DNA of 64,000 nucleotides from Aequorivita sp. H23M31 (GTDB lineage Bacteria; Bacteroidota; Bacteroidia; Flavobacteriales; Flavobacteriaceae), in contig NZ_CP034951.1 in assembly GCF_004022485.1 (NCBI RefSeq), positions 2,604,001-2,668,000 on the forward strand, written 5' to 3'. The first letter of the stretch is position 1. Every line of letters starts with the position of its first letter. Below the pieces are notes generated by a model. That model worked only from the letters and a program-made list of their open reading frames with translations, was not told where the DNA came from and did no database searches. Position numbers and translations under genes: made by a program. Below are positions 1 to 15,836 of the stretch, piece by piece.

Positions 1-422
1 TCGCACCTCCAAGAACAATTTGAAAGTATTATTCAAATCCGTGTTTTTAATTGTTATAATTCCGACCAATCCAAAAAAGAACATATCAACTGGGTCAAGT
101 AAATGTCTTTAAAGGATTCTCCAAAAGTAAGTTTTCGGTTTGTTCCGTTTTTCGGAATCGGTTTAAGTCCGACTAATGAATTTCCGATTGTTGCTCCGAA
201 ACCAATTTCAAGTCCAACTGTCATAATCAGCCAAAAAATTATAGGTATTAATCCAGGCAAACCGTTTAAAGAATATCCGCCTTCATCATTCGGTTCTCCA
301 AATGTGAAAATTAAAAAGAAAGTTACTCCGAAAATTATTATGTAATCTACTAATCCAGCAACAAATCGATTTCCAATATTAGGTTCAGTTTTATTTTTAG
401 CAATTATTTTTGTTTCGTTCAT
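1..422 (-). pseudogene. RDD family membrane protein, frameshifted and cut by window edge
   Basis: The start is the ATG at 422. The opening residues NRFVAGLVDYIIIF and the later GATIGNSLVGLKPI are the two signatures of RDD-domain membrane proteins, whose transport role is poorly defined. The frame ends at 54 after a non-RDD tail. Stepping back one base at about 107-113 (TTTAAAG on the minus strand) gives RHLLDPVDMFFFGLVGIIT, the standard third RDD segment, open to position 1. So one base is missing, by mutation or sequencing error, and the true 3' end lies outside the window. It is probably the outermost visible unit of the cassette-like array and shares its minus orientation. Confidence 0.7.
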
Positions 423-448
423 CGGTTTTTCTCAAATTCTGACTAACG

Positions 449-1828
449 TCAAATTAAGTTGCTGATATTCAGGTTGTTTTTAAACCCTAGGTCCTCTGGT
501 TTCAATTCAAATTTATCCATTTGTTTTTTAATGCGGTTCACTAGTCCGAGTTTTCTTTTTTGGTCCAGGAACAAGTATTGTTTCGGAGGCTGATATTGGA
601 TTTTTTTTGTGATCATGTTCCATATAATTACTGCGAGTTTTCGAGCCGTTGCACTCACTGCCGAATGCCTTCCCTTGCGGTAGGCGACCCTTCGGAAAAA
701 GTCGGATAGATGGGTGCCCTTTAGGTTGCCTATGGCATTGGCCGCTTGGCGCAGGGCGATCTTTAGCCGGTTACTTCCCTTAGGCACTCTGTTGCTTAGT
801 ATTTTCCCTCCTGATATCTTATTATTGGGCGCTAGCCTGAGCCAGGAAGTAAATTGTTTAGATGAGCCGAACTTATTGAAGCCCTCGGGACCTATCTCGC
901 TCATAATGGTCAATATCGTGGAGTGGCTCAATCCTTCGATGGCAAAGAGATCAACCCCGTCAAAATAGCGGAAAGCTATTTGGTTCAGATCTTTGATCTG
1001 TGGTGCATTTTTGTTCATCCTCTTATGCGGCTTTTCAGTTGTTTTCATTTTCCCGCGCTCAGGATGCTGTTTCAGTTCTTGCTTTATAAAATGTTCGATC
1101 TTTTTGTCGCAGTCCGCAATCTTTTTTTGAAAGAACTTATAGGCCTCGAACTCTTGTTGTAGTCCAAAGAGATAGTCAGACCGGTTGTTGCCGTGGAGTG
1201 CACTGGCAATTTCTTCTTTTGGTTTTCTGCAGTTGTAGTGGCGGTGCTCGGCTAGACTAAGGGGATCAAGGTTGCCCTTGCAGATATCCTCAATGATCTT
1301 CATGCCTGTAAGGCCACATACGTCCTTGACCACTACGTCCAATCTAAAGTTCAATAGTTTTAGGTACTTCTGCATCTTGTGCGTAGCCGAAGCGGCCAGA
1401 TCTATCCAGTTTCCCCTTTGGCGACAGAATGTCCTCAACTGTTCGGTTGTAAGATCTGGTAGGAAGCTGCCGCTGAGCAACCCTAGGGTGTGGAGTTTCT
1501 GTATCCATCGGCAATCCTTAACGTCTGTTTTTTTACCCTTGGCATTCTTGGTGAACTTTCCATTGGCCAGCACCACCTCAAAACCGAAGGAGATAAGCTC
1601 TACGTACAGGTTTTGCCAATAGTCTCCAGTGGACTCCATTGCCACTGTGGTCACGTCAGATTCCATGAGCCACTGGCAGAGTGCTGTGAGATCTTCGGCA
1701 TAGACCCCGAATTCCCTTACATTGTCTAGTTCTTGGCCAATGGCCACATAGTGGGAGCGGCTGCCCACGTCGATTCCGGCGGCATTGAAATTTACAACGT
1801 CCATGCCGAGTTTCATTTTTCTTTCCAT
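449..1828 (-). CDS. IS110-family transposase (DEDD recombinase), copy A
   Basis: This 459-residue protein has the two IS110 domains. The N-terminal RuvC-like DEDD domain shows AGIDVGSRSHYVAI (first Asp), AMESTGDYW (Glu) and GKKTDVKDCRWI (two Asp). The C-terminal Transposase_20 domain shows AIEGLSHSTILTIMSEIG and NNKISGGKILSNRVPKGSN, whose Ser in SGGK is at the place of the catalytic serine known for IS110 recombinases. In this family the protein works with an RNA made from the element's own non-coding end. The ORF is intact and probably functional. Copy B differs only by Gly to Lys just after that SG. Confidence 0.95.
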   Translation of the reverse strand: MERKMKLGMDVVNFNAAGIDVGSRSHYVAIGQELDNVREFGVYAEDLTALCQWLMESDVTTVAMESTGDYWQNLYVELISFGFEVVLANGKFTKNAKGKKTDVKDCRWIQKLHTLGLLSGSFLPDLTTEQLRTFCRQRGNWIDLAASATHKMQKYLKLLNFRLDVVVKDVCGLTGMKIIEDICKGNLDPLSLAEHRHYNCRKPKEEIASALHGNNRSDYLFGLQQEFEAYKFFQKKIADCDKKIEHFIKQELKQHPERGKMKTTEKPHKRMNKNAPQIKDLNQIAFRYFDGVDLFAIEGLSHSTILTIMSEIGPEGFNKFGSSKQFTSWLRLAPNNKISGGKILSNRVPKGSNRLKIALRQAANAIGNLKGTHLSDFFRRVAYRKGRHSAVSATARKLAVIIWNMITKKIQYQPPKQYLFLDQKRKLGLVNRIKKQMDKFELKPEDLGFKNNLNISNLI

Positions 1829-1849
1829 GATAAAAAAGTTTATGGATTA

Positions 1850-2100
1850 ATAAAAAATGACCCTAAGGAAATGTAACTTTGATATAGAAAATTATTCTGA
1901 ACGGGGTTCCTCTTTGATGGACCACCACTGAAATTATCAACAAGCCCTTGAATTAGTACTTCGGGGGCTTTTACATTTCAACCAGAATGTGTCCCGGGCT
2001 ATGACGCGCCAGTTTAAAAAACGGCCTTGCATAGGATCAACGTAAAGTTCGGGAGTTCTTACCGTTAGCTCAAGAAATTAATAGAAATTTTTATGTGGGG
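1850..2100 (-). ncRNA. candidate bridge-RNA region of IS110 copy A
   Basis: The long non-coding stretch upstream of the transposase is where IS110-subgroup elements encode the bridge RNA that pairs with donor and target DNA. It contains AAGCCC and GGGCTT arms at 1942-1947 and 1965-1970. Blocks such as ATTCTGA-CGGGGTT, CC(A/G)CCACT and CGGCCTTGCA recur in the otherwise diverged element C at 11520-11730, which points to a constrained RNA or end sequence. The exact RNA ends and guide loops were not determined. Confidence 0.4.
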
Positions 2101-2107
2101 AATGTAT

Positions 2108-2292
2108 GGTAACGGTCTCGGCTATGAGCAGTGCGAGGCAAAAATGCAATCATTTTCGAATTCGCACTAAGCCAAAACTTTTGTTCTTTAATTTCTTATT
2201 ATTCTAAACGCCAAAAAGTTTTGGCGACTTCGTAAATATACACTGCTTTTCGGTTTGGCACTTATCCCGCATTGCTTATAGCTAATGTTGTG
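2108..2292. repeat. attC-like hairpin H1
   Basis: The arms GCTATGAGCAGTGCG (2121-2135) and CGCATTGCTTATAGC (2268-2282) pair fully with two G-T wobbles. The left side begins TAACGGTCTCG and the right side ends TGTTGTGGGC, matching the outer parts of H2-H5. The roughly 130-bp loop holds a perfect inner hairpin, CGCCAAAA (2209-2216) with TTTTGGCG (2219-2226), and the block TTTTCGGTTTGGCACTT also seen in H4. IS110 copy A abuts its left side. Confidence 0.8.
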
Positions 2293-2585
2293 GGCTGTGT
2301 TTTTTGTACTCTGCTTGCGTTCCGATTGCGTTTTCCCTTTTTCTCTTTCACGAACCATCGAAAAAAATCAATTCTGTTCGATGATTAAAACACAGATTTC
2401 GCAAACAAGGATTCTTTTCCGACGTTGCTTGCGTTCCGCTGATAAAAGTCCGACGCAAGGATTGGAAATCTTTCTTTTTTTATCCGCCACTTTTTAAGTC
2501 CGCTGAACGGATTTCAGTTTCGATAAAAATTGTTAACCCAACCTTTCCCTCATTAAACTCTCCCACAACGTTTGGTATAATTCAC
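2292..2585. other. conserved non-coding tail after H1
   Basis: This gap contains no convincing gene. Its first 80 bases (GGGCTGTGTTTTTT, TGCTTGCGTTTTCC, CGAACCATCG, AAATCAATT) recur in the same order after H4 at 8259-8345, so the repeat unit is larger than the hairpin. At 2571-2588 a partial arm, CCCACAACGTTTGGTATAA, looks like the left part of another hairpin whose right part is missing. Confidence 0.6.
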
Positions 2586-2870
2586 TCAGACAGATGTAGG
2601 ATTCACTTGTATTTGTCCTCCAATTGCTTTTAATACTTTCATAATTGTAGCAAATTGAGGTTTTGCTCCATCAGATAATGCTTTATATAAACTCGGACGG
2701 CTTAATCCAGTTTCCTCCGCTATTTTTGTCATTCCGATGGCTTTAGCAACGTGTCCTATTGCATTAATAATATCTGAGTTATCACCATCTTCCAGAACAG
2801 TGTTGAGATATTCTGCAATCATTTCTTTACTGTCTAGATAATCCGCTATTTCAAATTTTGAAGTTCCCAT
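2586..2870 (-). CDS. HigA-type antitoxin (probable addiction-module antidote)
   Basis: The 94-residue protein carries a helix-turn-helix in its second half (IAEETGLSRPSLYKALSDGA, about residues 53-72) followed by KPQFATIMKVLKAIGGQI. This is the pattern of the addiction-module antidote family that partners Gp49-like toxins. It would bind and neutralise the toxin encoded just upstream and repress their shared promoter. The toxin stop and this ATG are three bases apart, so the pair is one transcript in toxin-first order. It is a stand-alone cassette between H1 and H2. Confidence 0.88.
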   Translation of the reverse strand: MGTSKFEIADYLDSKEMIAEYLNTVLEDGDNSDIINAIGHVAKAIGMTKIAEETGLSRPSLYKALSDGAKPQFATIMKVLKAIGGQIQVNPTSV

Positions 2871-2873
2871 TTT

Positions 2874-3173
2874 TTATTTGTTTAATTTTTTCCAAATGTT
2901 CTTTGCTTGTGCAATGTCCTTTTGCTGGGTCGATTTATCTCCTCCTATCAAAAGAACAATAATTTTTCCATCTTTTTCTTTGAAGTAAACACGGTAACCC
3001 TTAGCTAAATTTATTCGCATTTCCTGTATTCCATCGCCCACGGGTTTGCAATCGCCAAAATGCTCGTCAGTTTCCAATTTCTGAATTCTGAAAATTATTT
3101 TAGCCTTAGCCCTAAAGTCTTTTAACTTTTTTAGCCATTTATCAAATTCAGATGTTTTCTCAATGAAGAACAT
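2874..3173 (-). CDS. RelE/HigB-type (Gp49-like) toxin
   Basis: This 99-residue protein starts MFFIEKTSEFDKWLKKLKD and carries AKAKIIFRIQKLETDEHFGD, KPVGDGIQEMRINLAKGYRVYF and IIVLLIGGDKSTQQKDI. These are typical of phage-derived Gp49-like addiction-module killer proteins of the RelE fold, which act as ribosome-dependent mRNA interferases. The basic Arg/Lys residues expected at the active surface are present and the length is normal. It lies first in a two-gene unit with the antitoxin downstream. Confidence 0.88.
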   Translation of the reverse strand: MFFIEKTSEFDKWLKKLKDFRAKAKIIFRIQKLETDEHFGDCKPVGDGIQEMRINLAKGYRVYFKEKDGKIIVLLIGGDKSTQQKDIAQAKNIWKKLNK

Positions 3174-3265
3174 AATTTTTGTATCTACTTGGATACAAAT
3201 CTAAGGAAATTATTCTAATAAATTCAGATTGGGATATGTTTGGAGTTTAATCAGTTTTAATGCAC

Positions 3266-3384
3266 CACAACGGATCGTATAACCGCAGTTACGGGATTTA
3301 ATTAATGTTTTTCGAATAAGTACCGACGGTAGCAATTATGCGTGGATTCGGACGTAGTCGAATCCGCCGTAATTGCGGTTATAC
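3266..3384. repeat. attC-like hairpin H2, interrupted by an IS110 element
   Basis: The arms GTATAACCGCAGTTACGG (3277-3294) and CCGTAATTGCGGTTATAC (3367-3384) pair over 18 bp with one G-T wobble. The left side starts CACAACGGATCG. The expected right terminus (a GTT core) does not follow the right arm. Unrelated sequence begins at 3385, and a fitting core, GTTAGCCACAGG, is found at 4795 beyond the IS110 element. The hairpin therefore appears to be split by that insertion. Confidence 0.8.
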
Positions 3385-3536
3385 ATCTTAAGTTTGATCT
3401 TTAATAAATCAGTTAACTTTCAGTATAAATCAGAAAGAACAAAAGAGCGGAGTAAGGTTACTTTATACAGTGAAGCTTTAGACTTCGACAACATTGATAA
3501 TCCCCGCTCTTTTACTACTTAAATCACGTTCAGTTC

Positions 3537-3556: not shown

Positions 3557-3667
3557 TGTGAGGCCTAGACCTCGTTTTCAAGTTGTTGTGACCCAAGTAG
3601 CTGGTTCTTTCATAAACTATTTTCTATGAATGAATATAAGGAAACTTTTGGAGTTGACATCAGCAAG

Positions 3668-3686
3668 CCTGCCTGCAGCAGGCAGG
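3668..3686. repeat. 19-bp palindrome inserted in transposase gene
   Basis: CCTGCCTGCAGCAGGCAGG is a perfect inverted repeat around a central A. Deleting exactly these 19 bases restores the reading frame and the conserved IS110 start (GVDISK then DVFDLHG). It is therefore an inserted sequence rather than ancestral coding DNA, and its length of 18+1 causes the frameshift. Confidence 0.85.
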
Positions 3687-4391
3687 GATGTCTTTGATTT
3701 GCACGGCAGTACCAGTGGCCACGATCAGTTTAAGAATAACGAAAAAGGATTTGCCGCTTTTTTAAAGATCCTTCCCGAAGATTCGATCGTGGTGATGGAG
3801 GCCACGGGCTATTATCATTACAGACTCGCACAGTTTCTTTACAAAAACAACGTAGTTGTATCGGTCGTTAATCCGTTATCGGTAAAACGTTTCATACAAA
3901 TGAAGTTGGCCAAAGTAAAGACGGACAAGAGCGATGCAAAGGCAATCTGCGAGTATGCCCTGGCCAACGAAGTTCCGCTCTACAGTGCCTTGACCGATGT
4001 CCAGGCAGAGTGTTTGCAACTCTTCCGGTTAATGGACAGTTACCTTAAAAAACGCACGGCAACCAAGAACAAGCTGCACGGCGAAGAAACCCTGGGCATT
4101 CCCTCCAAGTTTGTGTACCGCTCCCTAAAACGGGACAGGAAACACTTGGACAAAGAGATTGCCGGTATCGAGGAACGTCTGCTCTCACTGGTCAAGATGG
4201 AACAACAACAACAGCTCACTCTTTTGACCACCGTTCCAGGGATAGGCACAAAGACAGCATTGTTTTTAATTGTAATAACCGATGGTTTTTCCAAGTTTGA
4301 GACTGCTGCGCAGCTCTGCAGTTATGTTGGCATTACACCTACGATCCGGGAGTCCGGAAGCAGTGTGCGTGGCCGTAGCAGGATCAGTAAG

Positions 4392-4431
4392 GACTTGCAT
4401 CCGACGAGCGAATTTTGAGCGAGAGGAATGC
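4392..4431. repeat. second repeat-like insertion in the transposase pseudogene
   Basis: Between the conserved SRISK and the resumed NAYKKLRNLLF segment lies non-family sequence with TGCATCC and GGAATGCA ends flanking GACGAGCGAATTTTGAGCGA. It introduces a stop at 4416-4418. The ends are approximate. The quasi-palindromic form suggests a second kind of dispersed short repeat. Confidence 0.55.
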
Positions 4432-4794
4432 ATATAAGAAACTTCGCAACTTACTTTTTCTTTGCGCTTTCAATGCCTGTAAGTACAACAAGGCCTGCCG
4501 GGAGCTCTATGAACGGATTGTAAACAAGGGAAAGAGCAAGAAGCTGGCACTTATTGGGGTTGCGAACAAATTGCTGAAACAGTGTTTCGCCATAGCAAAT
4601 TCGGGTTTGCCGTATGATGATGCGCACGTTTCAGTGCTAAGAATTAAATAACCAATATTAAAATGTTGGTGTTGTTTATAGCTTGTTGAACTGGAAACAA
4701 ATCGACGAAGGAAGATTTGTTCCATTTCAACAATGCCAGGAAAACTTTGTCAAAATTTAATGGAGAAAATGTTTGGTTTTTACCTCAGTTCTTT

Positions 4795-4806
4795 GTTAGC
4801 CACAGG
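4795..4806. other. cassette core-like end GTTAGCCACAGG
   Basis: This sequence is the inverted partner of CTTGTGGCTAAC at 5601-5612 (11 of 12 positions). The two bracket the DUF2975-HTH gene pair. It resembles the GTTRRRY core of integron recombination sites, with one mismatch. It probably is the right terminus of hairpin H2 displaced by IS element E. Confidence 0.55.
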
Positions 4807-4810
4807 TTTT

Positions 4811-5020
4811 TTATTCAGTTTCTTTGTATTCTAATATGTCAGCAGGTTGACATTCAAGAGCTTTGCATATAGATTCTAATGTCGAAAATCGAATTGCTTT
4901 TGCTTTTCCAGATTTTAAAATCGAAATATTAGCAGTTGTAATTCCAATTATTTCGGCAAGTTCTTTACTTTTCATTTTTCTTTTGGCTAGCATAACATCA
5001 AGATTTATTATAATTGCCAT
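4811..5020 (-). CDS. YozG/XRE-type helix-turn-helix regulator
   Basis: This 69-residue single-domain regulator reads MAIIINLDVMLAKRKMKSKE, then LAEIIGITTANISILKSGKA (the helix-turn-helix) and STLESICKALECQPADILEY. This is the compact Cro/C1-type family that usually sits beside a DUF2975 membrane gene. It begins three bases after the stop of that gene, so they are co-transcribed. It probably represses its own operon. The target is unknown. Confidence 0.88.
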   Translation of the reverse strand: MAIIINLDVMLAKRKMKSKELAEIIGITTANISILKSGKAKAIRFSTLESICKALECQPADILEYKETE

Positions 5021-5023
5021 AAA

Positions 5024-5521
5024 TTAAACTGTTAGTTCATTCTCTTCTTTCATTCCTTTTGCCAAATTCAGAGCGTTACTTTGAATGATAAAAAACATTC
5101 CGATAATGGACAAAAACAAAGGAATTAATAAATTATTATCATATATCAATTCAAATTTTCCTCCTGTTAATTTGCTTATCCATAAAACAACTATAAGAGC
5201 AAATGATAAAATTCCTGTGTATAGAAAATTATTCCCTGATTTTTTTAAATTCTCTATAGTTTTATTGGAAAAATATTTATTCGTTAATAAAAACCTTGCC
5301 ATTTTTCTCAAAAAATACAGACCTCTTAAAAATATTATATAAGCAAATAGACTTACAATAAAAATTAACCAATAAAATAAACTCCAATCTTCTACACTCA
5401 TATTTACTTGGTTAATATTGACAGTTCCAAAAGGTATTATAAATATTATCCCAATTAGTCCAATAAAATGTAGAATGTAAAGTATGTCAACAAGTGTTTT
5501 AAATAATATTGCTTTTTTCAT
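5024..5521 (-). CDS. DUF2975 membrane protein
   Basis: The 165-residue protein has four likely membrane spans: VDILYILHFIGLIGIIFII near 11-29, FYWLIFIVSLFAYIIFL near 49-65, FLYTGILSFALIVVLWI near 99-115 and LLIPLFLSIIGMFFII near 131-146. Length, topology and the downstream small HTH gene match DUF2975. The family's function is not established. The pair forms one cassette, bracketed by inverted core-like ends at 4795 and 5601. Confidence 0.85.
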   Translation of the reverse strand: MKKAILFKTLVDILYILHFIGLIGIIFIIPFGTVNINQVNMSVEDWSLFYWLIFIVSLFAYIIFLRGLYFLRKMARFLLTNKYFSNKTIENLKKSGNNFLYTGILSFALIVVLWISKLTGGKFELIYDNNLLIPLFLSIIGMFFIIQSNALNLAKGMKEENELTV

Positions 5522-5600
5522 ATTTGATGATTTAATTATTCAAATATACAATAATTATTGTTAAACAATAATATAATTATGATTAACGATGTTTTTTTAA

Positions 5601-5612
5601 CTTGTGGCTAAC
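5601..5612. other. cassette core-like end CTTGTGGCTAAC
   Basis: This is the inverted match of the end at 4795-4806 and leads directly into hairpin H3. It is the left terminus of H3 and the right boundary of the DUF2975-HTH unit. Confidence 0.55.
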
Positions 5613-5733
5613 GTTTGGTGTATGGGCAGTAAAGGTTTTCTTGCCCTGCCTTTCGCTGTGGCGATTATTTTGATTTTGTGCTTTTACTTAGAGGCAAGCA
5701 CTTTAGCCTTTATTGCCTATACACGGTGTTGTA
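5609..5733. repeat. attC-like hairpin H3 (uninterrupted)
   Basis: The arms GTGTATGGGCAGTAAAGG (5618-5635) and CCTTTATTGCCTATACAC (5707-5724) pair over 18 bp with two G-T wobbles. The left side begins CTAACGTTTG and the right side ends GGTGTTGT. An inner CTTGCC/GGCAAG pairing is possible. It is the only one of the five with no IS110 element attached, so it shows the native site. Confidence 0.85.
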
Positions 5734-5746
5734 AAACGTACTTTTA

Positions 5747-6037
5747 TCAGATTTCGATTGAAATATTGACCTTTCCTCCAAGCCCTTTTTCTACGATGTC
5801 AAATAAGGTTTTTAAAGTGAGATTACTGCCATTATTTTCTACACGTGAAATATAAGTCCGCTTTTTATCAATCAGCTCGCCAAGTTGTTCTTGTGTCAGG
5901 TTTTTTTCTTCTCGTGCATTTCGTAAAAGCAAGCCGATTTTAAATGACTCAAAATCTCTTTCGAGTTCGTCTCTGCGTTCAGTTCCTTTTTCTCCGTAAA
6001 CGGTATCTTTTATGTCTTTCCAGCTTTTAGTTTCCAT
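5747..6037 (-). CDS. XRE-type antitoxin of a second toxin-antitoxin pair
   Basis: I chose the ATG at 6037 (METKSWKDIKDTVYGEKG), which gives the usual start for this family. An upstream in-frame ATG at 6058 would add seven residues. The helix-turn-helix is NLTQEQLGELIDKKRTYISR, followed by VENNGSNLTLKTLFDIVEKG and a short strand KVNISIEI. It would neutralise the toxin encoded just upstream, whose last 11 bases overlap this start. The unit is distinct in sequence from the pair at 2586-3173. Confidence 0.87.
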   Translation of the reverse strand: METKSWKDIKDTVYGEKGTERRDELERDFESFKIGLLLRNAREEKNLTQEQLGELIDKKRTYISRVENNGSNLTLKTLFDIVEKGLGGKVNISIEI

Positions 6038-6383
6038 CTCTGTTGTTTTTTTCTTCATAATACTCTTTCATTAATCGGACAGCTTTGTCGATTTCTTTTT
6101 TCGGTGTTTTTTGCGTCTTTTTTGTAAATCCGTTTAAGAGTATAACTAACTTACCTTTGTCGAAGAAGCAAAAAACCCGCCAGATATCCGACCCCAATTT
6201 TATTCGAGCCTCATATAATCCTTTATGGGTTTTCATTGGTGCCAAATATGTTTTCGGCACGTGTTGAAAGGTTTCGATTATTTCAATGACCTTAAATATT
6301 TTGTCCTGAATCTTTTTCGGTTGAGCAAGTAGAAACTCCTCGAAATAATGTTTGTACTGTATTACTTGCCTAACTTTTTCCAT
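6027..6383 (-). CDS. RelE/HigB-type toxin
   Basis: I chose the ATG at 6383 (MEKVRQVIQYKHYFEEFLLA). A GTG two codons earlier is possible. Family features are KIQDKIFKVIEIIETFQHVP, GLYEARIKLGSDIWRVFCFF and LVILLNGFTKKTQKTPKKEI, the beta-strand and basic-residue pattern of RelE/HigB mRNA interferases (Gp49-like). It overlaps the antitoxin gene, a typical coupled arrangement. About 75 bp separate its start from IS110 copy B. Confidence 0.87.
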   Translation of the reverse strand: MEKVRQVIQYKHYFEEFLLAQPKKIQDKIFKVIEIIETFQHVPKTYLAPMKTHKGLYEARIKLGSDIWRVFCFFDKGKLVILLNGFTKKTQKTPKKEIDKAVRLMKEYYEEKNNRDGN

Positions 6384-6472
6384 TGGCACAAAGGTAACTT
6401 AAAAGTTACTATTTTCAAAATTCGGAATTGTGTTTTTTACAGATGGATTTTTCTTTGGTATTCTGACTAACG

Positions 6473-7852
6473 TCAAATTAAGTTGCTGATATTCAGGTTG
6501 TTTTTAAACCCTAGGTCCTCTGGTTTCAATTCAAATTTATCCATTTGTTTTTTAATGCGGTTCACTAGTCCGAGTTTTCTTTTTTGGTCCAGGAACAAGT
6601 ATTGTTTCGGAGGCTGATATTGGATTTTTTTTGTGATCATGTTCCATATAATTACTGCGAGTTTTCGAGCCGTTGCACTCACTGCCGAATGCCTTCCCTT
6701 GCGGTAGGCGACCCTTCGGAAAAAGTCGGATAGATGGGTGCCCTTTAGGTTGCCTATGGCATTGGCCGCTTGGCGCAGGGCGATCTTTAGCCGGTTACTT
6801 CCCTTAGGCACTCTGTTGCTTAGTATTTTCTTTCCTGATATCTTATTATTGGGCGCTAGCCTGAGCCAGGAAGTAAATTGTTTAGATGAGCCGAACTTAT
6901 TGAAGCCCTCGGGACCTATCTCGCTCATAATGGTCAATATCGTGGAGTGGCTCAATCCTTCGATGGCAAAGAGATCAACCCCGTCAAAATAGCGGAAAGC
7001 TATTTGGTTCAGATCTTTGATCTGTGGTGCATTTTTGTTCATCCTCTTATGCGGCTTTTCAGTTGTTTTCATTTTCCCGCGCTCAGGATGCTGTTTCAGT
7101 TCTTGCTTTATAAAATGTTCGATCTTTTTGTCGCAGTCCGCAATCTTTTTTTGAAAGAACTTATAGGCCTCGAACTCTTGTTGTAGTCCAAAGAGATAGT
7201 CAGACCGGTTGTTGCCGTGGAGTGCACTGGCAATTTCTTCTTTTGGTTTTCTGCAGTTGTAGTGGCGGTGCTCGGCTAGACTAAGGGGATCAAGGTTGCC
7301 CTTGCAGATATCCTCAATGATCTTCATGCCTGTAAGGCCACATACGTCCTTGACCACTACGTCCAATCTAAAGTTCAATAGTTTTAGGTACTTCTGCATC
7401 TTGTGCGTAGCCGAAGCGGCCAGATCTATCCAGTTTCCCCTTTGGCGACAGAATGTCCTCAACTGTTCGGTTGTAAGATCTGGTAGGAAGCTGCCGCTGA
7501 GCAACCCTAGGGTGTGGAGTTTCTGTATCCATCGGCAATCCTTAACGTCTGTTTTTTTACCCTTGGCATTCTTGGTGAACTTTCCATTGGCCAGCACCAC
7601 CTCAAAACCGAAGGAGATAAGCTCTACGTACAGGTTTTGCCAATAGTCTCCAGTGGACTCCATTGCCACTGTGGTCACGTCAGATTCCATGAGCCACTGG
7701 CAGAGTGCTGTGAGATCTTCGGCATAGACCCCGAATTCCCTTACATTGTCTAGTTCTTGGCCAATGGCCACATAGTGGGAGCGGCTGCCCACGTCGATTC
7801 CGGCGGCATTGAAATTTACAACGTCCATGCCGAGTTTCATTTTTCTTTCCAT
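6473..7852 (-). CDS. IS110-family transposase, copy B
   Basis: This 459-residue recombinase equals copy A except that SGGKILS reads SGKKILS. The change lies two residues after the Ser that I align with the catalytic serine of the Transposase_20 domain. Element C keeps SGGK, so Gly is ancestral and this copy is derived. Whether it stays active cannot be judged. The DEDD residues (GIDVGS, AMESTG, KTDVKDC) are intact. Confidence 0.95.
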   Translation of the reverse strand: MERKMKLGMDVVNFNAAGIDVGSRSHYVAIGQELDNVREFGVYAEDLTALCQWLMESDVTTVAMESTGDYWQNLYVELISFGFEVVLANGKFTKNAKGKKTDVKDCRWIQKLHTLGLLSGSFLPDLTTEQLRTFCRQRGNWIDLAASATHKMQKYLKLLNFRLDVVVKDVCGLTGMKIIEDICKGNLDPLSLAEHRHYNCRKPKEEIASALHGNNRSDYLFGLQQEFEAYKFFQKKIADCDKKIEHFIKQELKQHPERGKMKTTEKPHKRMNKNAPQIKDLNQIAFRYFDGVDLFAIEGLSHSTILTIMSEIGPEGFNKFGSSKQFTSWLRLAPNNKISGKKILSNRVPKGSNRLKIALRQAANAIGNLKGTHLSDFFRRVAYRKGRHSAVSATARKLAVIIWNMITKKIQYQPPKQYLFLDQKRKLGLVNRIKKQMDKFELKPEDLGFKNNLNISNLI

Positions 7853-7873
7853 GATAAAAAAGTTTATGGATTA

Positions 7874-8124
7874 ATAAAAAATGACCCTAAGGAAATGTAA
7901 CTTTGATATAGAAAATTATTCTGAACGGGGTTCCTCTTTGATGGACCACCACTGAAATTATCAACAAGCCCTTGAATTAGTACTTCGGGGGCTTTTACAT
8001 TTCAACCAGAATGTGTCCCGGGCTATGACGCGCCAGTTTAAAAAACGGCCTTGCATAGGATCAACGTAAAGTTCGGGAGTTCTTACCGTTAGCTCAAGAA
8101 ATTAATAGAAATTTTTATGTGGGG
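7874..8124 (-). ncRNA. candidate bridge-RNA region of IS110 copy B
   Basis: This is the same sequence as the candidate in copy A. Both copies carrying one guide and both sitting next to AACG-(G)TCTCG hairpin ends is what programmed targeting would give. RNA ends were not determined. Confidence 0.4.
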
Positions 8125-8131
8125 AATGTTT

Positions 8132-8258
8132 TACAACGTCTCGTATAAACGCAGTAGCGGGATTGGCGCACGGACTTTTCGGTTTATACTAGACTTTAAA
8201 TTTATAAAATTACTTTTCGGTTTTGCACTTGCCCGCTATTGTGTTTATGCAATGTTGT
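8132..8258. repeat. attC-like hairpin H4
   Basis: The arms ATAAACGCAGTAGCGGG (8145-8161) and CCCGCTATTGTGTTTAT (8232-8248) pair over 17 bp with two G-T wobbles. The outer segments ACAAC (8133-8137) and GTTGT (8254-8258) also pair, separated from the main stem by a short unpaired spacer, as in integron attC sites. The loop contains TTTTCGGTTTTGCACTT, shared with H1. IS110 copy B abuts the left side. Confidence 0.85.
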
Positions 8259-8424
8259 GGGCTGTGTTTTTTTACTCTGTTTTCGTTCTGCTTGCGTTTT
8301 CCTTTTTTCTCTTTCCCGAACCATCGCAGAAAATCAATTGCGTTTAATGGTCAGGTAGAAGTTGTTTTTCTTTATTCCACTTTGACAGAAAAGTGAAGCT
8401 AACTGTTTGTTACAGGCTTCTATT
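8259..8424. other. conserved non-coding tail after H4
   Basis: No gene is supported here. The first 80-90 bases repeat the tail after H1. At 8405-8416 GTTTGTTACAGG resembles the cassette end GTTAGCCACAGG and comes just before the stop of the next minus-strand gene. Confidence 0.5.
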
Positions 8425-9522
8425 TTAATATTTTATTATTTCGCTTAATTTTCCGTTAGTAAAATATAGTTTAAGCATACCAGTATATTCCCATATTTCT
8501 ATTTCTCCTTTTGCATCCGTGTATGATTTTTTATTAAGAGTTATTCCATAAATATCTTTACACATTTCTTTTGTCATACCAATAGTTCCTTTTTTATTAA
8601 AAACAAGATTCCCATAATTCTGACCATATTTTTTTACAAGGCTATTTAATTTCTCTTTTCGCTCAGCTTCTGTTTTTTCACTTCGTTTTTCGGCTATATG
8701 TTTAGGGGTGAATACTTCGGAAAACCACCAACGTCCAGAATTTGACTTGGTAATATTCATTATAATCGTGTCATTTCCATTACCTAAAATTGCCATATAT
8801 TTTAAATCTTGGTCTTCATTTGTTATTTCATCTCCAGGGAAAAAATTTATATCTCTACCTCTAAGTAGGCTAAACCTTCCTTTCCATTCTGTTCCTTTGT
8901 CAATATAAAGACTTCCGTTCTTTGTTGAAAGGGGGAGTTTATCAGCGCTGAAATCTTGCGTTGCAATAAATGAGGTTTTCGAAAATAAATCAGTAAGGTT
9001 TTCATAGAATGGTACGAGAACGAAAGAAATTGAAGATTCAACAACATAAACTATTTCTCCGGTCTCTTCATCTTTCAGTGTAAATAGTAAATCTGTTTCG
9101 AGAAACTCTTTGTTCCTATCATTAATTTTGGCATAAAATGGAGTTTTGCCAAGCTCTGCATCAATGCGTTCAATCTTAAAATATCTTTCATTAATAAATT
9201 CTCTTTTTAAGAGGTTAATTGTGGATTCATCCTTAAAAATATAAATATCTTTTTCTCTATAACTGTTTGAATATTTTGGGAAAAATATTTTGGAGTCATT
9301 ATATCTTGAATAAAATTCTTCCTTGGTTGGTGTTTTATCTTTCGGGGGATTATACCCATAGTATTCCTCATAACTTAGGAAATTCTCATGATTTTCATAC
9401 GGAGGTGCTTTTACAATTTCCTTCTCTATATTAGCTCTATCGAGAGAATTCCCCATTGTGATTTGTGATGAAACCATTGATGAACATAATAAAATAAATA
9501 ATGCGCTAATAGTTTTTTTCAT
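8425..9522 (-). CDS. secreted protein of unknown function with BamE-like C-terminus
   Basis: I do not recognise this 365-residue protein as a whole. It starts with a signal peptide (MKKTISALFILLCSSMVSSQ). The middle is rich in charged residues and beta-strand-like stretches. The last 60 residues (IGMTKEMCKDIYGITLNKKS, then EIEIWEYTGMLKLYFTNGKL) resemble the GMTxxEV...WxY...LxFxxGxL pattern of the BamE/SmpA lipoprotein fold, which is inference from pattern only. It follows the GIY-YIG-like gene by 10 bases, so the two form one transcript and one cassette between H4 and H5. Confidence 0.75.
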   Translation of the reverse strand: MKKTISALFILLCSSMVSSQITMGNSLDRANIEKEIVKAPPYENHENFLSYEEYYGYNPPKDKTPTKEEFYSRYNDSKIFFPKYSNSYREKDIYIFKDESTINLLKREFINERYFKIERIDAELGKTPFYAKINDRNKEFLETDLLFTLKDEETGEIVYVVESSISFVLVPFYENLTDLFSKTSFIATQDFSADKLPLSTKNGSLYIDKGTEWKGRFSLLRGRDINFFPGDEITNEDQDLKYMAILGNGNDTIIMNITKSNSGRWWFSEVFTPKHIAEKRSEKTEAERKEKLNSLVKKYGQNYGNLVFNKKGTIGMTKEMCKDIYGITLNKKSYTDAKGEIEIWEYTGMLKLYFTNGKLSEIIKY

Positions 9523-9532
9523 GGTTTTTTAA

Positions 9533-10102
9533 TTAATGTTTTCCAATAATTGGTTTTAATTTTTTACTTAGCCTTTTTTCTAATAAAATTAAATAGTCTC
9601 GACTTTCTTGTTCAAAGAAAATTACAGTAAATGATAACTTTAAATCTTTGGTTGTTTTATTTCCCCATAGTCCAACTTGAAGTCCATGAGATTTTCTTTG
9701 TTTATGATAACCTAAATGTTGAATTAACCTACCCCATGCACAGGAAGTAACCTTTCCAACATACAAAAAAACGTTATTCTCTTTATAATTATTAATTGCA
9801 GGAGTTTTTAATGAATCATTTACTTTAATTAATTCCAAAACTTCTGTCTTACTTAATTCTTGGTTGATTTGAAAAAAATAAAGAGCGGGATAATCGTTAT
9901 ATTCTCTTAACGTGTCAAACATTTCTTTGAAGTTTACGTCTTGTGTAATATCATGCGTGATAAAATCTTCTGTGAAATGCTTGGAATCGATGTCAAATTT
10001 AAAGCTATTAACAATTTGTCCTTTTGTAATTGCGTCAAATATTGAAACTGCTTTTGTAGCCTCATCGCATATTAATTTTTCGATTTGTTCTTTTTGAATC
10101 AT
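9533..10102 (-). CDS. GIY-YIG nuclease-like protein
   Basis: The C-terminal half of this 189-residue protein reads ALYFFQI, then VFLYVGKVTSCAWGRLIQHL, HGLQVGLWG and a late SRDYLILLEKRLSKKLKPII. This follows the Y...LYVGK...RL.QHLG order of GIY-YIG-fold endonucleases, with Arg, the QH pair and a late Glu as candidate active-site residues. The N-terminal part (about 1-90) is unfamiliar. It is the first gene of a two-gene unit with a secreted protein. The target is unknown, and a catalytic role is inference. Confidence 0.6.
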   Translation of the reverse strand: MIQKEQIEKLICDEATKAVSIFDAITKGQIVNSFKFDIDSKHFTEDFITHDITQDVNFKEMFDTLREYNDYPALYFFQINQELSKTEVLELIKVNDSLKTPAINNYKENNVFLYVGKVTSCAWGRLIQHLGYHKQRKSHGLQVGLWGNKTTKDLKLSFTVIFFEQESRDYLILLEKRLSKKLKPIIGKH

Positions 10103-10151
10103 TTGTACATTTCTTTTACATTCTGACTAACGTATTATATTTAATTGTTTA

Positions 10152-11507
10152 TTAGGTATTTACAAAACCTATAACTTCATTGGTCAAACCAAATTTATCG
10201 ATTTGTTTCTTTATACGCTTCACCAATCCCAGCTTTCTTTTTTGGTCTAGGAATAGGTACCCTTCTGGATTTATATAGGGCACTGCCTTGACCACCATGT
10301 TCCAAATAATCACTGCAAGCTTTCGTGCTGTGGCACTAATGGCCGATACGCGTCCTTTTCTAAAGTTGACACGATGGAAGAAGTCACGCAATGGGGTTGA
10401 TTCTTTTAAGTTCCCTATGGCATTTGCGGCATTGCGTAGCGCAATTTTTAAACGGTTGCTACCCTTGGGCACTTTGCTGGATAGCACCTTGCCACCGCTT
10501 ACTTTATTGTTTGGCGCCAATCGCAACCAGCTCGCAAAGTGTTTTGCGGTTGGAAACTTCCGGATCCCTTCGATTCCCACCTCACTCATTAGTGCCAGAA
10601 CTGTGGAGTAGCTCATTCCCTCTATGGCCAATAGGTCTGTTCCCTCGAACATCTGATACGACTTTAAGTTTAGGTCTATTTCCCTGGGCGTGTTTTTGTT
10701 GATCCTTTTATGGGGTTTTGGATCAATGTGGTGCTCCCGCTTGTTGTCGTCCGAACCGATGATCTCCTCGAGCATTTTTGCTATCTCCTTGTCGCACTGT
10801 CCTATTTTTAATTGCAGGTGGTCATAGGTCTCCAATTCCTGCCCAAGAGCGAATAGGTAATCCTTTCTTCCATTTGATTGCAAAGCACTGGCTATCTCCT
10901 CTTCACTTCTACGACAGTTGCCGTGCCTTAGTGACGCAAGCTTTTGCGGATCCTTTTCCCCCTGGCAAATTGCGCGAATGATCAAAAGTTCCGTAAGGCC
11001 ACAGATATCCTTCACTACCACATCCAAGCGGAAATTGAGCAGTCTGAGATATTTCTGCATTTTTTTGGAGGTAGAGGCTGCCGCATGGAGCAGATTGGAC
11101 CTGTGCCTGCAATAGGTGCGCAACTGCTCGGTCTGTCCATCGGGCAGGAAACTGCCGCTGAGCAGTCCCAGAGTGTGCAGCTTTTGTATCCATTGGCAGT
11201 CCATTACATCACTTTTTTTTCCTTTGATGTTCTTGGTAAACTTGCCATTGCACAGGATTACGTGAAAACCCCGAGCGACAAGAACTGCATAGAGATTTTG
11301 CCAATAAGTACCAGTACTTTCCATGGCAACAGTCATGATTTTCCTTTCATCCAACCAATCGGCCAGGGCAAAAAGATCTTGATTAAAAACGCCAAACTCG
11401 CGAACATCCGGTTCGGATTGGCCAACGGCCACCCAATGTGAGCGGCTCCCAATGTCTATTCCCGCAGCATGGGGATTGACAATTTCCATTGAAACAGTTT
11501 CTTCCAT
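10152..11507 (-). CDS. IS110-family transposase C
   Basis: I chose the ATG at 11507 (MEETVSMEIVNPHAAGIDIG), which matches the start of copies A/B. An open frame extends 24 codons further but lies over the conserved non-coding end. The 451 residues contain AGIDIGSRSHWVAV, AMESTGTYW and GKKSDVMDCQWI for the DEDD domain, and AIEGMSYSTVLALMSEVG and NNKVSGGKVLSSKVPKGSN for Transposase_20. It is clearly related to A/B over its whole length but is a distinct element. It appears intact. Confidence 0.92.
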   Translation of the reverse strand: MEETVSMEIVNPHAAGIDIGSRSHWVAVGQSEPDVREFGVFNQDLFALADWLDERKIMTVAMESTGTYWQNLYAVLVARGFHVILCNGKFTKNIKGKKSDVMDCQWIQKLHTLGLLSGSFLPDGQTEQLRTYCRHRSNLLHAAASTSKKMQKYLRLLNFRLDVVVKDICGLTELLIIRAICQGEKDPQKLASLRHGNCRRSEEEIASALQSNGRKDYLFALGQELETYDHLQLKIGQCDKEIAKMLEEIIGSDDNKREHHIDPKPHKRINKNTPREIDLNLKSYQMFEGTDLLAIEGMSYSTVLALMSEVGIEGIRKFPTAKHFASWLRLAPNNKVSGGKVLSSKVPKGSNRLKIALRNAANAIGNLKESTPLRDFFHRVNFRKGRVSAISATARKLAVIIWNMVVKAVPYINPEGYLFLDQKRKLGLVKRIKKQIDKFGLTNEVIGFVNT

Positions 11508-11519
11508 AGTTATAGAGTT

Positions 11520-11730
11520 TAAAATAGCTCTGAGGAGATGTGCTTTTGGCTTGTAAATATTCTGATCGGGGTTGCCCAAAGATCGGCACCGCCACTGGAG
11601 TCATCGCAAACATCTCAACCAGGATTGCGCTCGTGCTTCCCGAGGGAGCAACAGTTGAAAAATCGGCCTTGCAAAGAGCATCACTAATTTATGAAAAAAG
11701 TAAATGCGCAACGTTAGCTTTGGGAGTCAA
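11520..11730 (-). ncRNA. candidate bridge-RNA region of element C
   Basis: Non-coding DNA upstream of the transposase shares ATTCTGA-CGGGGTT, CCGCCACT, CGGCCTTGCA and TTAGCT blocks, in order, with the matching region of copies A/B, while the sequence between them differs. That is expected of a structured RNA whose guide loops diverge. Limits are not determined. Confidence 0.4.
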
Positions 11731-11754
11731 TGGTGGGGTATAGGTGGGATTACT

Positions 11755-11871
11755 GCTAACGTTTCGTGTATGAGCAGTGGCGTGGGCTGGCACGAACTAT
11801 TGCAAACAGTTACTTGCCAGAGGAAAATCCGCAGGATTTTCCAAGTAGGCGGGAAAAAGCCATTGCTTATA
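11755..11871. repeat. attC-like hairpin H5, flanked by IS110 elements on both sides
   Basis: The arms TATGAGCAGTGGC (11769-11781) and GCCATTGCTTATA (11859-11871) pair over 13 bp with two G-T wobbles. The left side begins GCTAACGTTTCGTG. An inner hairpin AAAATCC/GGATTTT lies at 11824-11840. The right terminus is missing after TATAGCA. A fitting CATTGTTGCCCACAG occurs at 13307-13321 beyond IS element D, so D interrupts the site. Confidence 0.8.
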
Positions 11872-13304
11872 GCATCTATGAAAAAGCAGCGAGTCTCGTA
11901 TCTTTAAAGTTCACCAAAAACAATAAGATATGAAAACTGAACCCACTGCCCAACCAAAGTTATACATAGGCATCGATATCCACAAGAGGAGCTGGAAAGT
12001 TCATTGTGCTACAGATCTCTTTGCTGGCAAGTCGTTTGCCATGCCTCCAAAGCCTGAAGTCTTACAGGAGTATGTTTCTAAACACTTTCCTAATTATGAG
12101 GTCACTACGGCTTATGAAGCTGGCTGTTGCGGCTATTATGCGCATCGTAGTTTTATACAGTATGGATGGACCTCCCTTGTGGTCAACCCTGCCGATATCC
12201 ACCGCAAGGGAAAGGAACGCTTTACTAAGACCGATAAAATAGATGCCCAGCTTATAAGCAGGGAATTAAAAGATGGTAGATTGGAAAGTATACATGTACC
12301 TGAAATTGAACGAGAACAACTGCGCAGTCTCTTTAGAAGGCGCAATGATCTGGTAAAGGATTTTAGACGCATCAAGAGCCATATCAAGATGCAGCTGCTT
12401 TATTTCGGTGTTGCCATTCCCGAGGAGTTTGACAATGATCATTGGAGCCATAAATTCCGTGGCTGGATTGACGATCAATCATTTGTTTACCCATCGGCCC
12501 GTGAGACGCTGGATAGCAGAATGCGCAGTTTTAGGTTTATCGATCAAGAACTACGAGATGTGTCTTCAAAGATTCGTGCCTATTGTCGCAAGCATTACAA
12601 GAAGGATTATTATCTCTTAAAAAGTATTCCGGGAATAGGTGGGATCGTTGCCAGCGGTATCATCTGCGAGCTTGGTGACCTGCGGCGCTTTAACAGCATA
12701 AAACATTTGGCGGGCTATGTAGGTCTGGCACCGGGGGTCCATCAAAGTGGCGACAACCAAAAGAGCACCGGTATTACAATGCGTGCCCATAGATTGATGC
12801 GCAGTTATTTTATAGAAGCATCGTGGCAGGCCATCAGGACAGATCCGATAATGCAGGCCTATTATCGCAAGCATTTGGGAAAGGACGTCAAATCAGTAAT
12901 AATCAAGGTCGCGCGTAAATTACTCAGCAGGACCTTGGCGGTAATAAAAACAGAGACTCCCTATGCAATAGGAGTAATAGAATAATAATATAAACAGATA
13001 ACAAAGCTCACAAAGAAGTATTCAAAACCTGTATCACAAAACAATGTAGGTGGCCTCCGCCGAAGGCGGATGGACCACATCTTTTTAGCAAGTGGCCAGG
13101 TTTATTCTAACTTATAATCATACAGATGCTGGTGACCGCGCTTAGACGATGGATCACATATAGGATGCGGAGCAAGTTATATGGTATTGAAATATTGATA
13201 ATCCTTCGGAATTATCAACATTCCAACACCCCAAAATAATCATTATGAGATAATTAAAATATAAATACTATTTTTGAAGAACGGGATTAGTGCTTTTCAT
13301 AGGA
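11872..13304 (+). mobile_element. IS110-family insertion sequence D
   Basis: Limits are inferred from the broken hairpin H5: its stem ends at about 11871 and its GTT core reappears at 13311. About 55 bp lie before the transposase and about 320 bp after it, so in this element the large non-coding end is downstream, as in the IS1111 subgroup. That end contains a GTGGCCTCCGCC-type palindrome (13049-13077) and a perfect TTGATAAT/ATTATCAA hairpin (13195-13218). It may encode this element's guide RNA. No other gene is seen in 12986-13324. Confidence 0.65.
11930..12985 (+). CDS. IS110-family transposase D
   Basis: This 351-residue recombinase has the DEDD domain (YIGIDIHKRSWKVHCA, TAYEAGCCGYYAHR, KTDKIDAQLISREL) and the Transposase_20 domain (LKSIPGIGGIVASGIICELG, GYVGLAPGVHQSGD), where the Ser of HQSGD is the likely catalytic serine. 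The sequence is far from A/B/C, so it is an independent lineage. The ORF is intact. The ATG at 11930 follows an A-rich leader. Confidence 0.93.
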   Translation: MKTEPTAQPKLYIGIDIHKRSWKVHCATDLFAGKSFAMPPKPEVLQEYVSKHFPNYEVTTAYEAGCCGYYAHRSFIQYGWTSLVVNPADIHRKGKERFTKTDKIDAQLISRELKDGRLESIHVPEIEREQLRSLFRRRNDLVKDFRRIKSHIKMQLLYFGVAIPEEFDNDHWSHKFRGWIDDQSFVYPSARETLDSRMRSFRFIDQELRDVSSKIRAYCRKHYKKDYYLLKSIPGIGGIVASGIICELGDLRRFNSIKHLAGYVGLAPGVHQSGDNQKSTGITMRAHRLMRSYFIEASWQAIRTDPIMQAYYRKHLGKDVKSVIIKVARKLLSRTLAVIKTETPYAIGVIE

Positions 13305-13310
13305 CACATT

Positions 13311-13321
13311 GTTGCCCACAG
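13311..13321. other. cassette core-like end GTTGCCCACAG
   Basis: This is the inverted partner of TTGTGGGCAAC at 14246-14256 (10 of 11 positions). Together they bracket the hydrolase gene, with this copy four bases before its stop codon. Its preceding CACATT fits the missing right terminus of H5. Confidence 0.55.
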
Positions 13322-13324
13322 TTT

Positions 13325-14236
13325 TTAATTCTTCATCCAGTTTATTAATTCTTTTTCGTTTACTATTGACCAAGAATGTGGATGCCTTTCTCCATTTTCC
13401 CGATAACCTCTATTTTCTGTTTTTATCAGTTCGATATTATTATAACCAAATTCGGTTTTTAATTTTTCCGACAATTTTTCAATGTAGAAGGCATTTAAGT
13501 CTTCATAATCATTATTGGCATTTTCCTTCCACCATTTTAAATCGGGTTCTGTGTAAAGTCTGATTTTTAAATTTTCTAATCCTTTGAGATTATCGATGTT
13601 TTGAGTTTCCAATGTGAACGGTGAGTTCAGTTCGTATTTGACGATACCACTCTCTAGATTTCCAAACTCATTATCTAACATTCCTTTAATCCACTTTGAT
13701 TCCGCAACAGCTGGTTCGGAAAAATTAAGTTTTAAATTCTTTTCTGCGGTTTTATAAAGTCCGAAAAGGTCAACGGGCGAATCCACTATAAAAACTCCTT
13801 TTGGTTGAATTTGACTTTTGCTTTTTACGAGATAATCACTAATTATTAAGCTTACATTTCCTCCGCTCGAAAATCCGCCAACAAATATGTTCTTTTCAGA
13901 TAAATTTTGTTCTCTAATTATTCCTGTTATTTTTTCCGCTAACTTTTCCTTTTCTCGCAGATTTAAATATAAACGTTCGTTTAAGTTCATTGCCAAAACT
14001 GAAAAGCCATTTTCCTTGCTAATTTCAGCAATTTTAAATTCGGACAATGTATTTTCTGCATCACACGGAAAACAAGGAAATAGAATTAAAAGTCCTTGTT
14101 GATTTTCTGCTTTGATTAGTTCAAATTCAGAGGTTTTTATTATTTCAGATGTAGCTTTTTCGGTCGGTTTATTTTTCTCGTTTTGTCCTTTGCAAGACAT
14201 TGTAATCAAAGCTAAAATTATTATGTATTTCTGCAT
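13325..14236 (-). CDS. alpha/beta-hydrolase-like lipoprotein
   Basis: The protein of 303 residues opens with a lipoprotein-type signal (MQKYIIILALITMSC, with Cys at about 15). The nucleophile elbow is GGFSSGG (G-x-S-x-G), preceded by the strand NIFVGG. A late His near the end (RHPHSW) could complete a triad, with an Asp such as that in VDSPVDLFG. It probably acts as an esterase or peptidase at the cell envelope; the substrate is unknown. It is the single gene of the last cassette and is bracketed by inverted core-like ends. Confidence 0.75.
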   Translation of the reverse strand: MQKYIIILALITMSCKGQNEKNKPTEKATSEIIKTSEFELIKAENQQGLLILFPCFPCDAENTLSEFKIAEISKENGFSVLAMNLNERLYLNLREKEKLAEKITGIIREQNLSEKNIFVGGFSSGGNVSLIISDYLVKSKSQIQPKGVFIVDSPVDLFGLYKTAEKNLKLNFSEPAVAESKWIKGMLDNEFGNLESGIVKYELNSPFTLETQNIDNLKGLENLKIRLYTEPDLKWWKENANNDYEDLNAFYIEKLSEKLKTEFGYNNIELIKTENRGYRENGERHPHSWSIVNEKELINWMKN

Positions 14237-14245
14237 TTTTTCAAA

Positions 14246-14256
14246 TTGTGGGCAAC
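14246..14256. other. cassette core-like end TTGTGGGCAAC
   Basis: This is the partner of 13311-13321. It is followed by ATGGTTATATACG, which resembles a hairpin left arm, but the matching right arm is badly degenerate. It probably marks the right edge of the array. Confidence 0.5.
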
Positions 14257-14414
14257 ATGGTTATATACGAATATTTTAAAGAAGCTATGTCGTTTATATC
14301 GCCAATCCACGACACATTTATTTCCATTTAGCGAATGATCTCCTCCTAACTCGGTTTATAAATTGATTAATCAAAAGGTATAAAAAGCTTGGGGAATGGT
14401 TTCAATCGCTTTAA

Positions 14415-14455: not shown

Positions 14456-14462
14456 ATATAAA

Positions 14463-15825: not shown

Positions 15826-15836
15826 GGTAGAAAAGA

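Follow-up and report, generated by a model that had tools for sequence, protein, structure and literature searches.

Integrons are on record in Bacteroidota, and the accessible part of the IntegronFinder 2.0 report names one complete integron in Bacteroidetes proper, that of Salinibacter ruber M1 (PMC9024848). IntegronFinder is described as recognising integrases by the family PF00589 together with a profile of the domain specific to IntI (I2, or patch III), and the gain of an I2-like domain by a Xer-like ancestor has been pictured as an imaginable step in the origin of integrons (PMC4792948, available part). Here a 64-kb stretch of the genome of Aequorivita sp. H23M31 (3.68 Mb in one contig, NZ_CP034951.1; positions 2604001-2668000, G000:C1), called the window below, was analysed for an array of small minus-strand gene units at its left end; coordinates refer to the window unless given as genomic. 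An earlier note on this DNA had recorded five related hairpins between the units, had described the array as being without an integrase, and had proposed a CALIN-like array (CALIN, cluster of attC sites lacking an integron integrase) or else a cassette system of Bacteroidota that is analogous but undescribed. That proposal gains support from a cassette shared with other genera, from sequences that diverge at GTT and from a sister array headed by a recombinase. The region is very probably a detached CALIN-like cassette array of an integron-type gene-capture system, whose recombinase represents a sister lineage of IntI without I2 and, with it, an apparently overlooked second lineage of integrons. 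In literature searches aimed at such a system, judged by titles, abstract openings and excerpts and with bioRxiv and most subscription papers outside their scope, no paper was recognised as a description of this lineage.

The new group shares with IntI integrons an integrase, an attI-like site, co-oriented cassettes, GTT borders, a bottom-strand bias, attC hairpins of about 45-64, 120-129 or 175-189 nt, and group II introns in or beside some arrays. It differs in an integrase that lacks the IntI-specific domain and in most members carries extra N-terminal residues, and in unit ends that have 7-nt arms and an A at position +8. A CALIN is defined by two or more attC sites that lie within 4 kb of each other and by the absence of an integrase. 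In the same way the window array has attC-like sites at 2103, 3261, 5602, 8127 and 11750, spaced by less than 4 kb, with no integrase nearby, but a related, I2-less integrase is found about 85 kb away. Since IntegronFinder requires the IntI-domain profile, integrases such as those described here would go unrecognised, and their arrays would at best be listed as CALINs.

The five window hairpins belong to one attC-like family according to a covariance model, R1, which was trained on 13 hairpins of the same genome, four of them from the window. The consensus stem comprises 14 pairs, and for 9 of these at least one sequence of the 13-hairpin alignment carries a pair-preserving change on both sides. 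R1 recovered in addition 13 sites of a class of about 190 nt, none of which was used in training, with the site at 2103-2297 among them, and at E ≤ 0.1 neither the control loci L039-L042 nor the remaining window gave a match. The relatedness of the hairpins is thereby borne out, and building such a model, a check that had been suggested beforehand, recovered unseen sites with clean controls. Against Rfam, positions 1-16000 produced at E ≤ 0.1 matches to mir-133 alone, all under the gathering score.

All five hairpins lie on the minus strand. The long-class hairpin at 2103..2297 (R1 E 3e-8) has an IS110 insertion sequence (IS) element after its R' box, with the IS end a few nt past GTT. The other four were members of the training set: 3261..3398 (E 1e-15), with an R'' box that reads as degenerate; 5602..5738 (E 8e-20), with both boxes; 8127..8264 (E 2.5e-27), also with both boxes and an IS110 element after R'; and 11750..11889 (E 1e-13), whose R'' side, by reading, was lost beside an IS110 element. 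With three hairpins of the array that bears the integrase, the one at 8127..8264 shares 87-89% identity. Over the whole genome 32 R1 matches were obtained at E ≤ 0.01, with 150 of 2857 first-look candidates scored: 16 at 2.520-2.534 Mb, six in the window array (one of which sits just left of the window), five at 135-153 kb and five elsewhere. The third cluster, with five attC-like sites at genomic 135174-153617, is distant from the integrase, as are the single sites at 949245, 1516667, 2315015, 2361088 and 2924343.

A blastn search with one window hairpin disclosed the sister array, about 85 kb from that of the window. Its co-oriented units, with 16 R1 sites, follow an attI-like site, and it is headed by the gene of the tyrosine recombinase P0001 (368 aa, genomic 2516603-2517709), so that the description 'without an integrase' holds for the window and fails for the genome; a tyrosine recombinase near such arrays had been named as something to look for. 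The gene is followed by about 90 nt, GTTATAGCCAATGC, a unit, GCACTGGCTATAAC, a hairpin, GTT, the next unit, and onward. One toxin-antitoxin cassette is present twice as an 899-nt block of 94% identity that starts with CGTT in both copies. The closest integrases among named genomes are those of Aequorivita viscosa (83%) and Profundicola chukchiensis (82%). Two further tyrosine recombinases near hairpins, at 152 kb and 773 kb, were dropped, as the adjoining genes read as IS91-type elements. In the stretch L033 (12753-14240 and 17685-19575) hairpins enclose several units that measure about 310-390 nt and have no clear gene by reading; some of them recur as near copies.

P0001 is a member of the tyrosine recombinase family (PF00589, 136.5 bits), and the group to which it belongs has no IntI-specific additional domain. 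All 44 integrase loci have 58-65 residues between the KDR-type motif and HxLRH, whereas all 28 IntI have 100-102; the scans for this distance caught other motifs by mistake in comparison rows of 4 of 14 IntI (34-38) and 9 of 44 members of the new group (124 or 72). None of the 11 members tested reached the cut-off of 265 of the model TIGR02249, with scores of 174-216 bits. NF040815, 'site-specific tyrosine recombinase/integron integrase', a name that a Chryseobacterium plasmid copy bears, was the best or second-best NCBIfam match for 11 of 11 members; four pass its 220-bit cut-off and seven stay under it, and the model is called XerA_Arch, a name without mention of arrays. By sequence the best solved relatives are the archaeal Xer proteins 4a8e and 5hxy, the latter also being best by fold; in the best-sampled tree they fall outside the clade that unites IntI with the new group, and to our knowledge no cassette arrays accompany archaeal Xer. 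In fold searches the extra N-terminal domain weakly resembles structure-binding domains (the XPB DRD and HARP), but CASTOR1 and eIF1 rows tie with XPB, and therefore no fold is claimed for it. No phage record matched the integrase at 1e-40; viral contigs contained 118 relatives with 24-44% identity, 80 of which were retrieved.

In the best-sampled tree the new group forms one clade (98/87) that is the sister of IntI (100/95) with respect to two XerA cores and three Xer proteins, other recombinases being thinly sampled. In the first tree the new group came out paraphyletic to IntI; the rows dropped from it were 10 of 28 IntI, a short own-genome recombinase and three near-duplicates within the new group. 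For the second, three more near-duplicates and one more own-genome recombinase were also removed (14 of 28 IntI in all), and 55% of its 200 bootstrap trees united the new group in a single clade. The third, which gave the sister placement, lost also the longest-branched own-genome recombinase and gained three rows, so that the resolution of the group coincided with several changes made together.

The anatomy of the sites was deduced from about one hundred units. The R' box is GTTR in 98 of 102 and is preceded by C in 97 of 102, and the R'' side is YAAC in 101 of 103. In all but one of 103 units the pairing of the arms extends no further than 7 nt; at position 8, an A follows GTT in 102 of 103 and a C stands before AAC in 81 of 103. 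The IntI control (25 units, six loci) had arms of 5-12 nt and R' boxes that were GTTA in 25 of 25. Lengths of the attC-like sites fall mostly at 120-129 nt (60/103), with 19 at 175-189 nt and 14 at 45-64 nt. By predicted folds the bottom strand is the preferred one: of 103 hairpins, 84 had the more stable fold on this strand, with one tie, compared with 110 of 309 random windows of the same loci. Recombination of the bottom strand is established behaviour of attC sites (PMC2727003).

The position of the borders was established from pairs of related sequences. Two integrase copies in one genome share 99% identity over 1237 nt and their alignment ends at GTT, the identity falling from 1.00 across the 33 nt that lead up to it to 0.37 across the next 30 nt; for five related loci the corresponding values are 0.70 and 0.38. 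This pattern, with sequences beside the integrase gene alike up to GTT and divergent after, indicates an attI-like site. The alignments of L045 with L046 (95%) and of L043 with L044 (87%) also stop within a few nt of GTT. Cassettes common to two loci start at (C)GTT, both for L134 and L047 (76% over 787 nt) and for L115 and L144 (88% over 786 nt); the first cassette that L047 and L134 share carries, by reading, a nucleotidyltransferase-like gene. The window unit called 'hydrolase' (query 15-960) has an 83% match in another genus, covering query 4-965, and a 79% match in one more genus, covering query 9-967, with borders in both within about 11 nt of GTT and AAC, and the 83% copy is the middle unit of a three-unit chain with a complete attC of about 190 nt. 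Among 299 genomes of the family, nine match this unit, the own genome included, six of them only partially and more weakly (66-74%). For the DUF2975 unit there are 89 matching genomes of 299, again with the own genome, mostly over query 576-799; nearly the whole unit is present at 69% in another genus (G652:C1:2654353-2655153). The comparisons indicate that cassettes move as units with the cut at GTT. Precise gain of a unit between hairpins, which the earlier note had wanted to see, is represented by the 'hydrolase' cassette with its borders in another genus, and the outcomes it had named as refuting, hairpins moving without genes or units never gained precisely, were not seen in the compared sequences.

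The same architecture was sought in other Bacteroidia. Profile A3 of the recombinase family, with at most four candidates scored per genome, was found at E ≤ 1e-80 in 102 of 395 genomes of the class and 63 of 197 genera. From 36 of the 102 genomes 40 stretches were chosen for score and downstream sequence, and together with the own integrase array, the window array and six named relatives (L043-L048) they make up 48 loci. Reading the six relatives by eye showed that a GTT after the integrase opens the first unit and that the unit closes with the complement of its start; in L043-L046 the stretch preceding the first GTT is clearly alike. A simple stem detector being too strict, it was replaced by a unit-chain detector for the pattern GTT plus at least 5 nt, unit, complement plus AAC, stem, GTT. 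As this pattern is palindromic the reverse strand could not serve as a control, and dinucleotide shuffles and other genome stretches were used. Chains of at least two units with a score of at least 9 occurred in 26 of 48 loci (the own integrase array, four of the six named relatives and 21 of the 40 further stretches) and in none of 480 shuffles. The detector gave at least two units in L043, L044, L047 and L048, one in L045 and zero in L046. As a positive control, 10 loci were drawn from 85 genomes that belong to other parts of the phylum and have IntI matches, and 9 of these conventional loci had at least two units at a score of at least 9 in at least one direction. Of the 44 loci that have an integrase open reading frame (ORF), 26 show a chain that begins 12-148 nt past its stop, four of these chains being single units. 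The longest ORF runs toward the hairpin in 77 units and opposite in 5, and 21 units have no ORF of 80 aa. Units, borders, orientation and linkage to the integrase thus emerge from comparison among genomes.

Five IS110-family transposases, at 449-1828, 3630-4418, 6473-7852, 10152-11579 and 11930-12985, had been overlooked when the array was described as cassette units; the units stand, and the IS110 elements occupy about half of the region (the ends of two elements are estimated). The minus-strand element at 436..2105 is inserted a few nt past an attC GTT. That at 6460..8129, on the same strand, has the same type of target and is 99.6% identical to the first over 1685 nt, and a third minus-strand element (10120..11751) also sits at an attC target of this type. 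On the plus strand, the transposase frame at 3630..4651 is broken into two ORFs, the first of which was assigned by family scan, and the transposase at 11930..12985 adjoins the cut attC with the hairpin 11750..11889. When ten stretches of the own genome were searched for end motifs, all five 5' ends found sat 5-7 nt past an attC GTT, a range that depends on how a shared base is counted; three are in the window and two near 143-146 kb (L036, near 3532 and 6461). The IS110 ends are thus located within R' boxes, and attC sites seem to serve this IS as targets, for which the IS1111-attC elements offer a parallel.

The presence of these five transposases, and IS ends that abut the hairpins, could suggest that the hairpins are mere repeats, which IS110 or some other insertion sequence has spread, and that the genes are bystanders. 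Against this, the pattern of hairpins and units recurs beside the integrase in many genomes, the IS ends fall inside the R' boxes as they would at targets, and at about 2519.8-2530.6 kb units and hairpins alternate with no transposase-like ORF by reading, transposase families not having been scanned there; we consider this explanation hardly credible. A conventional IntI integron that lost its integrase would leave an ordinary CALIN, and both the architecture and the attC lengths near 120 nt do resemble the IntI arrays of the phylum. Yet the hairpin family of the window also forms an array beside an I2-less recombinase, TIGR02249 at 1e-60 has no match in the own genome, and the unit ends differ from the 5-12-nt arms and GTTA of IntI, which makes such a loss very improbable.

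Harder to set aside is convergence, in which a Xer-like recombinase would have adopted hairpins independently of IntI, with no shared integron ancestor. The branch from the new group to IntI is long (1.07 to 1.73), the IntI-specific insertion is missing and an extra N-terminal domain is present, and the integrase gene runs along its array. By description, the chromosomal integron of Treponema has a comparable layout, its intI being transcribed toward attI in the direction of the cassettes (PMC3607928). The single clade of the new group as sister to IntI argues against convergence, although sampling was thin and the earlier trees were paraphyletic or unresolved; an independent origin is therefore a real possibility, toward which we do not lean.

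Several observations weigh against reading the window as part of an integron-type system with a recombinase of this lineage. The unit-chain detector finds one unit in the window array, a score equalled by some shuffles. The full consensus GTTRRRY is present in only 7 of 102 R' boxes (6 of 25 in the IntI control) and RYYYAAC in 9 of 103 R'' sides. The chain test is failed by 22 of 48 loci, many of which are on contigs that end soon past the integrase, while the loci of about 15 kb L112, L113, L114, L118, L135 and L138 have one unit each and L116 has two units at a score of 8.9; L112, L118 and L132 contain no integrase ORF. No chain begins near the integrase stop in 18 of 44 loci, with eight starting at least 660 nt away and ten having none; the own array is among the eight, its first units being missed by the detector. 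The N-terminal domain is absent in L126 and L129, though L129 has one attC-sized unit, and for two of seven distinct 3'-end motifs of IS110 the stretches read contain no 5' end that matches. Lastly, circular cassettes, a single-stranded bottom-strand substrate, the cut at GTT and recombination itself are what we infer from sequences.

If the window array does belong to such a gene-capture system, the recombinase would cut at the GTT of a double-stranded attI and inside the R' box of a folded single-stranded bottom-strand hairpin, and a circular cassette would be captured beside the integrase. Full pairing of the two N7 arms in the circle would explain why each cassette has its own matching pair; as the matched 7-nt arms face each other only in the circle, they would fit a selection at the capture step. 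Arrays distant from the integrase, like that of the window, may have arisen through rearrangement or because cassettes were captured at scattered sites, and then decayed by IS110 insertion. The weakest step is the binding of the folded site, for which other parts of the protein may stand in for the missing insertion, perhaps the XPB/HARP-like domain at its N terminus.

A wider reading, which we offer tentatively and at a little short of even confidence, is that integrons comprise two ancient branches, and that the one of the Bacteroidia captures folded single-stranded cassettes without an I2 helix, is widespread and plasmid-borne, and gave cassettes, a tetracycline-inactivating gene included, to other phyla. 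Capture without this helix would make I2 a later addition to IntI and not the key that made integrons possible, and a structure-binding N-terminal domain may do its job. A sister lineage without I2 makes the I2-gain idea put forward in the available text of PMC4792948 testable, and it offers a natural test of whether folded attC sites need the I2 helix, as well as a gene-capture platform of Bacteroidota for study. For Riemerella the accessible part of one report describes a 140-bp attC-like stem-loop 3' of aph(3')-IVb, inserted without flanking homology, and leaves the recombinase unnamed (PMC13148043); the likeness of this 3' hairpin to those of the window is one of description only, and the present group is a candidate recombinase class for that insertion.

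Three units of the window have inverted ends. GTTAGCCACAAG from 5612 pairs with CCTGTGGCTAAC at 4806-4795, and GTTGCCCACAA from 14256 with CTGTGGGCAAC at 13321-13311, exactly as the inverted core-like ends had been described for two units; a third pair, absent from that description, is GTTGTAAAAC from 8137 with GTTTTACAAC ending at 5728. On the minus strand, the cassette GTTGCCCACAA...CTGTGGGCAAC (13311..14256) contains one ORF (13325-14236), the 'hydrolase' mentioned above; GTTAGCCACAAG...CCTGTGGCTAAC (4795..5612) encodes a DUF2975 protein (5024-5521) and a helix-turn-helix (HTH) protein (4811-5020); and GTTGTAAAAC...GTTTTACAAC (5728..8137), split by an IS110 element, carries a toxin-antitoxin pair (5747-6389). 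Further minus-strand genes are an HI1419/HI1420-type toxin-antitoxin pair at 2586..3173 (TIGR02683, TIGR02684), cassette genes at 8425..10102 with zero Pfam or NCBIfam matches at 1e-3, and, at 54..422, the gene of the next unit, for an RDD-family protein (PF06271). Family matches back both toxin-antitoxin pairs as first assigned, and likewise the DUF2975 and HTH assignments; the names 'GIY-YIG-like' and 'hydrolase' have no Pfam or NCBIfam family behind them at E ≤ 0.001. PADLOC gave partial matches (NsnC, control-protein, HTH and similar models) for 5 of 10 cassette proteins, all of the toxin-antitoxin type.

Relatives of the integrase were also found on plasmids by tblastn at 1e-40, in 75 records, 50 of them from Acinetobacter, all below 60% identity. 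The Acinetobacter baylyi plasmid NZ_CP104737.1 (13268-26359, L231) has at 6508-8530 a 198-aa relative just upstream of tet(X3), with 55% identity to P0001 residues 176-366 and a start after IS26; tblastn aligned residues 11-366 in one piece that overlaps the annotated IS26, and its first part was taken as a chance extension. After tet(X3) half an attC-like arm can be read. We hypothesise that tet(X3) was captured as a cassette, and the lineage described here is a possible origin of the recombinase beside tet(X3) on Acinetobacter plasmids. Plasmid NZ_CP041688.1 of Chryseobacterium sp. SNU WT5 (L232) carries an integrase of the new group, annotated 'site-specific tyrosine recombinase/integron integrase', a three-unit chain at a laxer stem threshold, an IS110 element and a group II intron; a second plasmid (L233) has a weak chain only (6.8). 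Group II introns, known from IntI integrons and CALINs (PMC7923331), occur in L113, L114 and L137 and in the third cluster of the own genome (L036, about 151 kb), downstream of the integrases or beside attC-like sites, with several copies in one genome.

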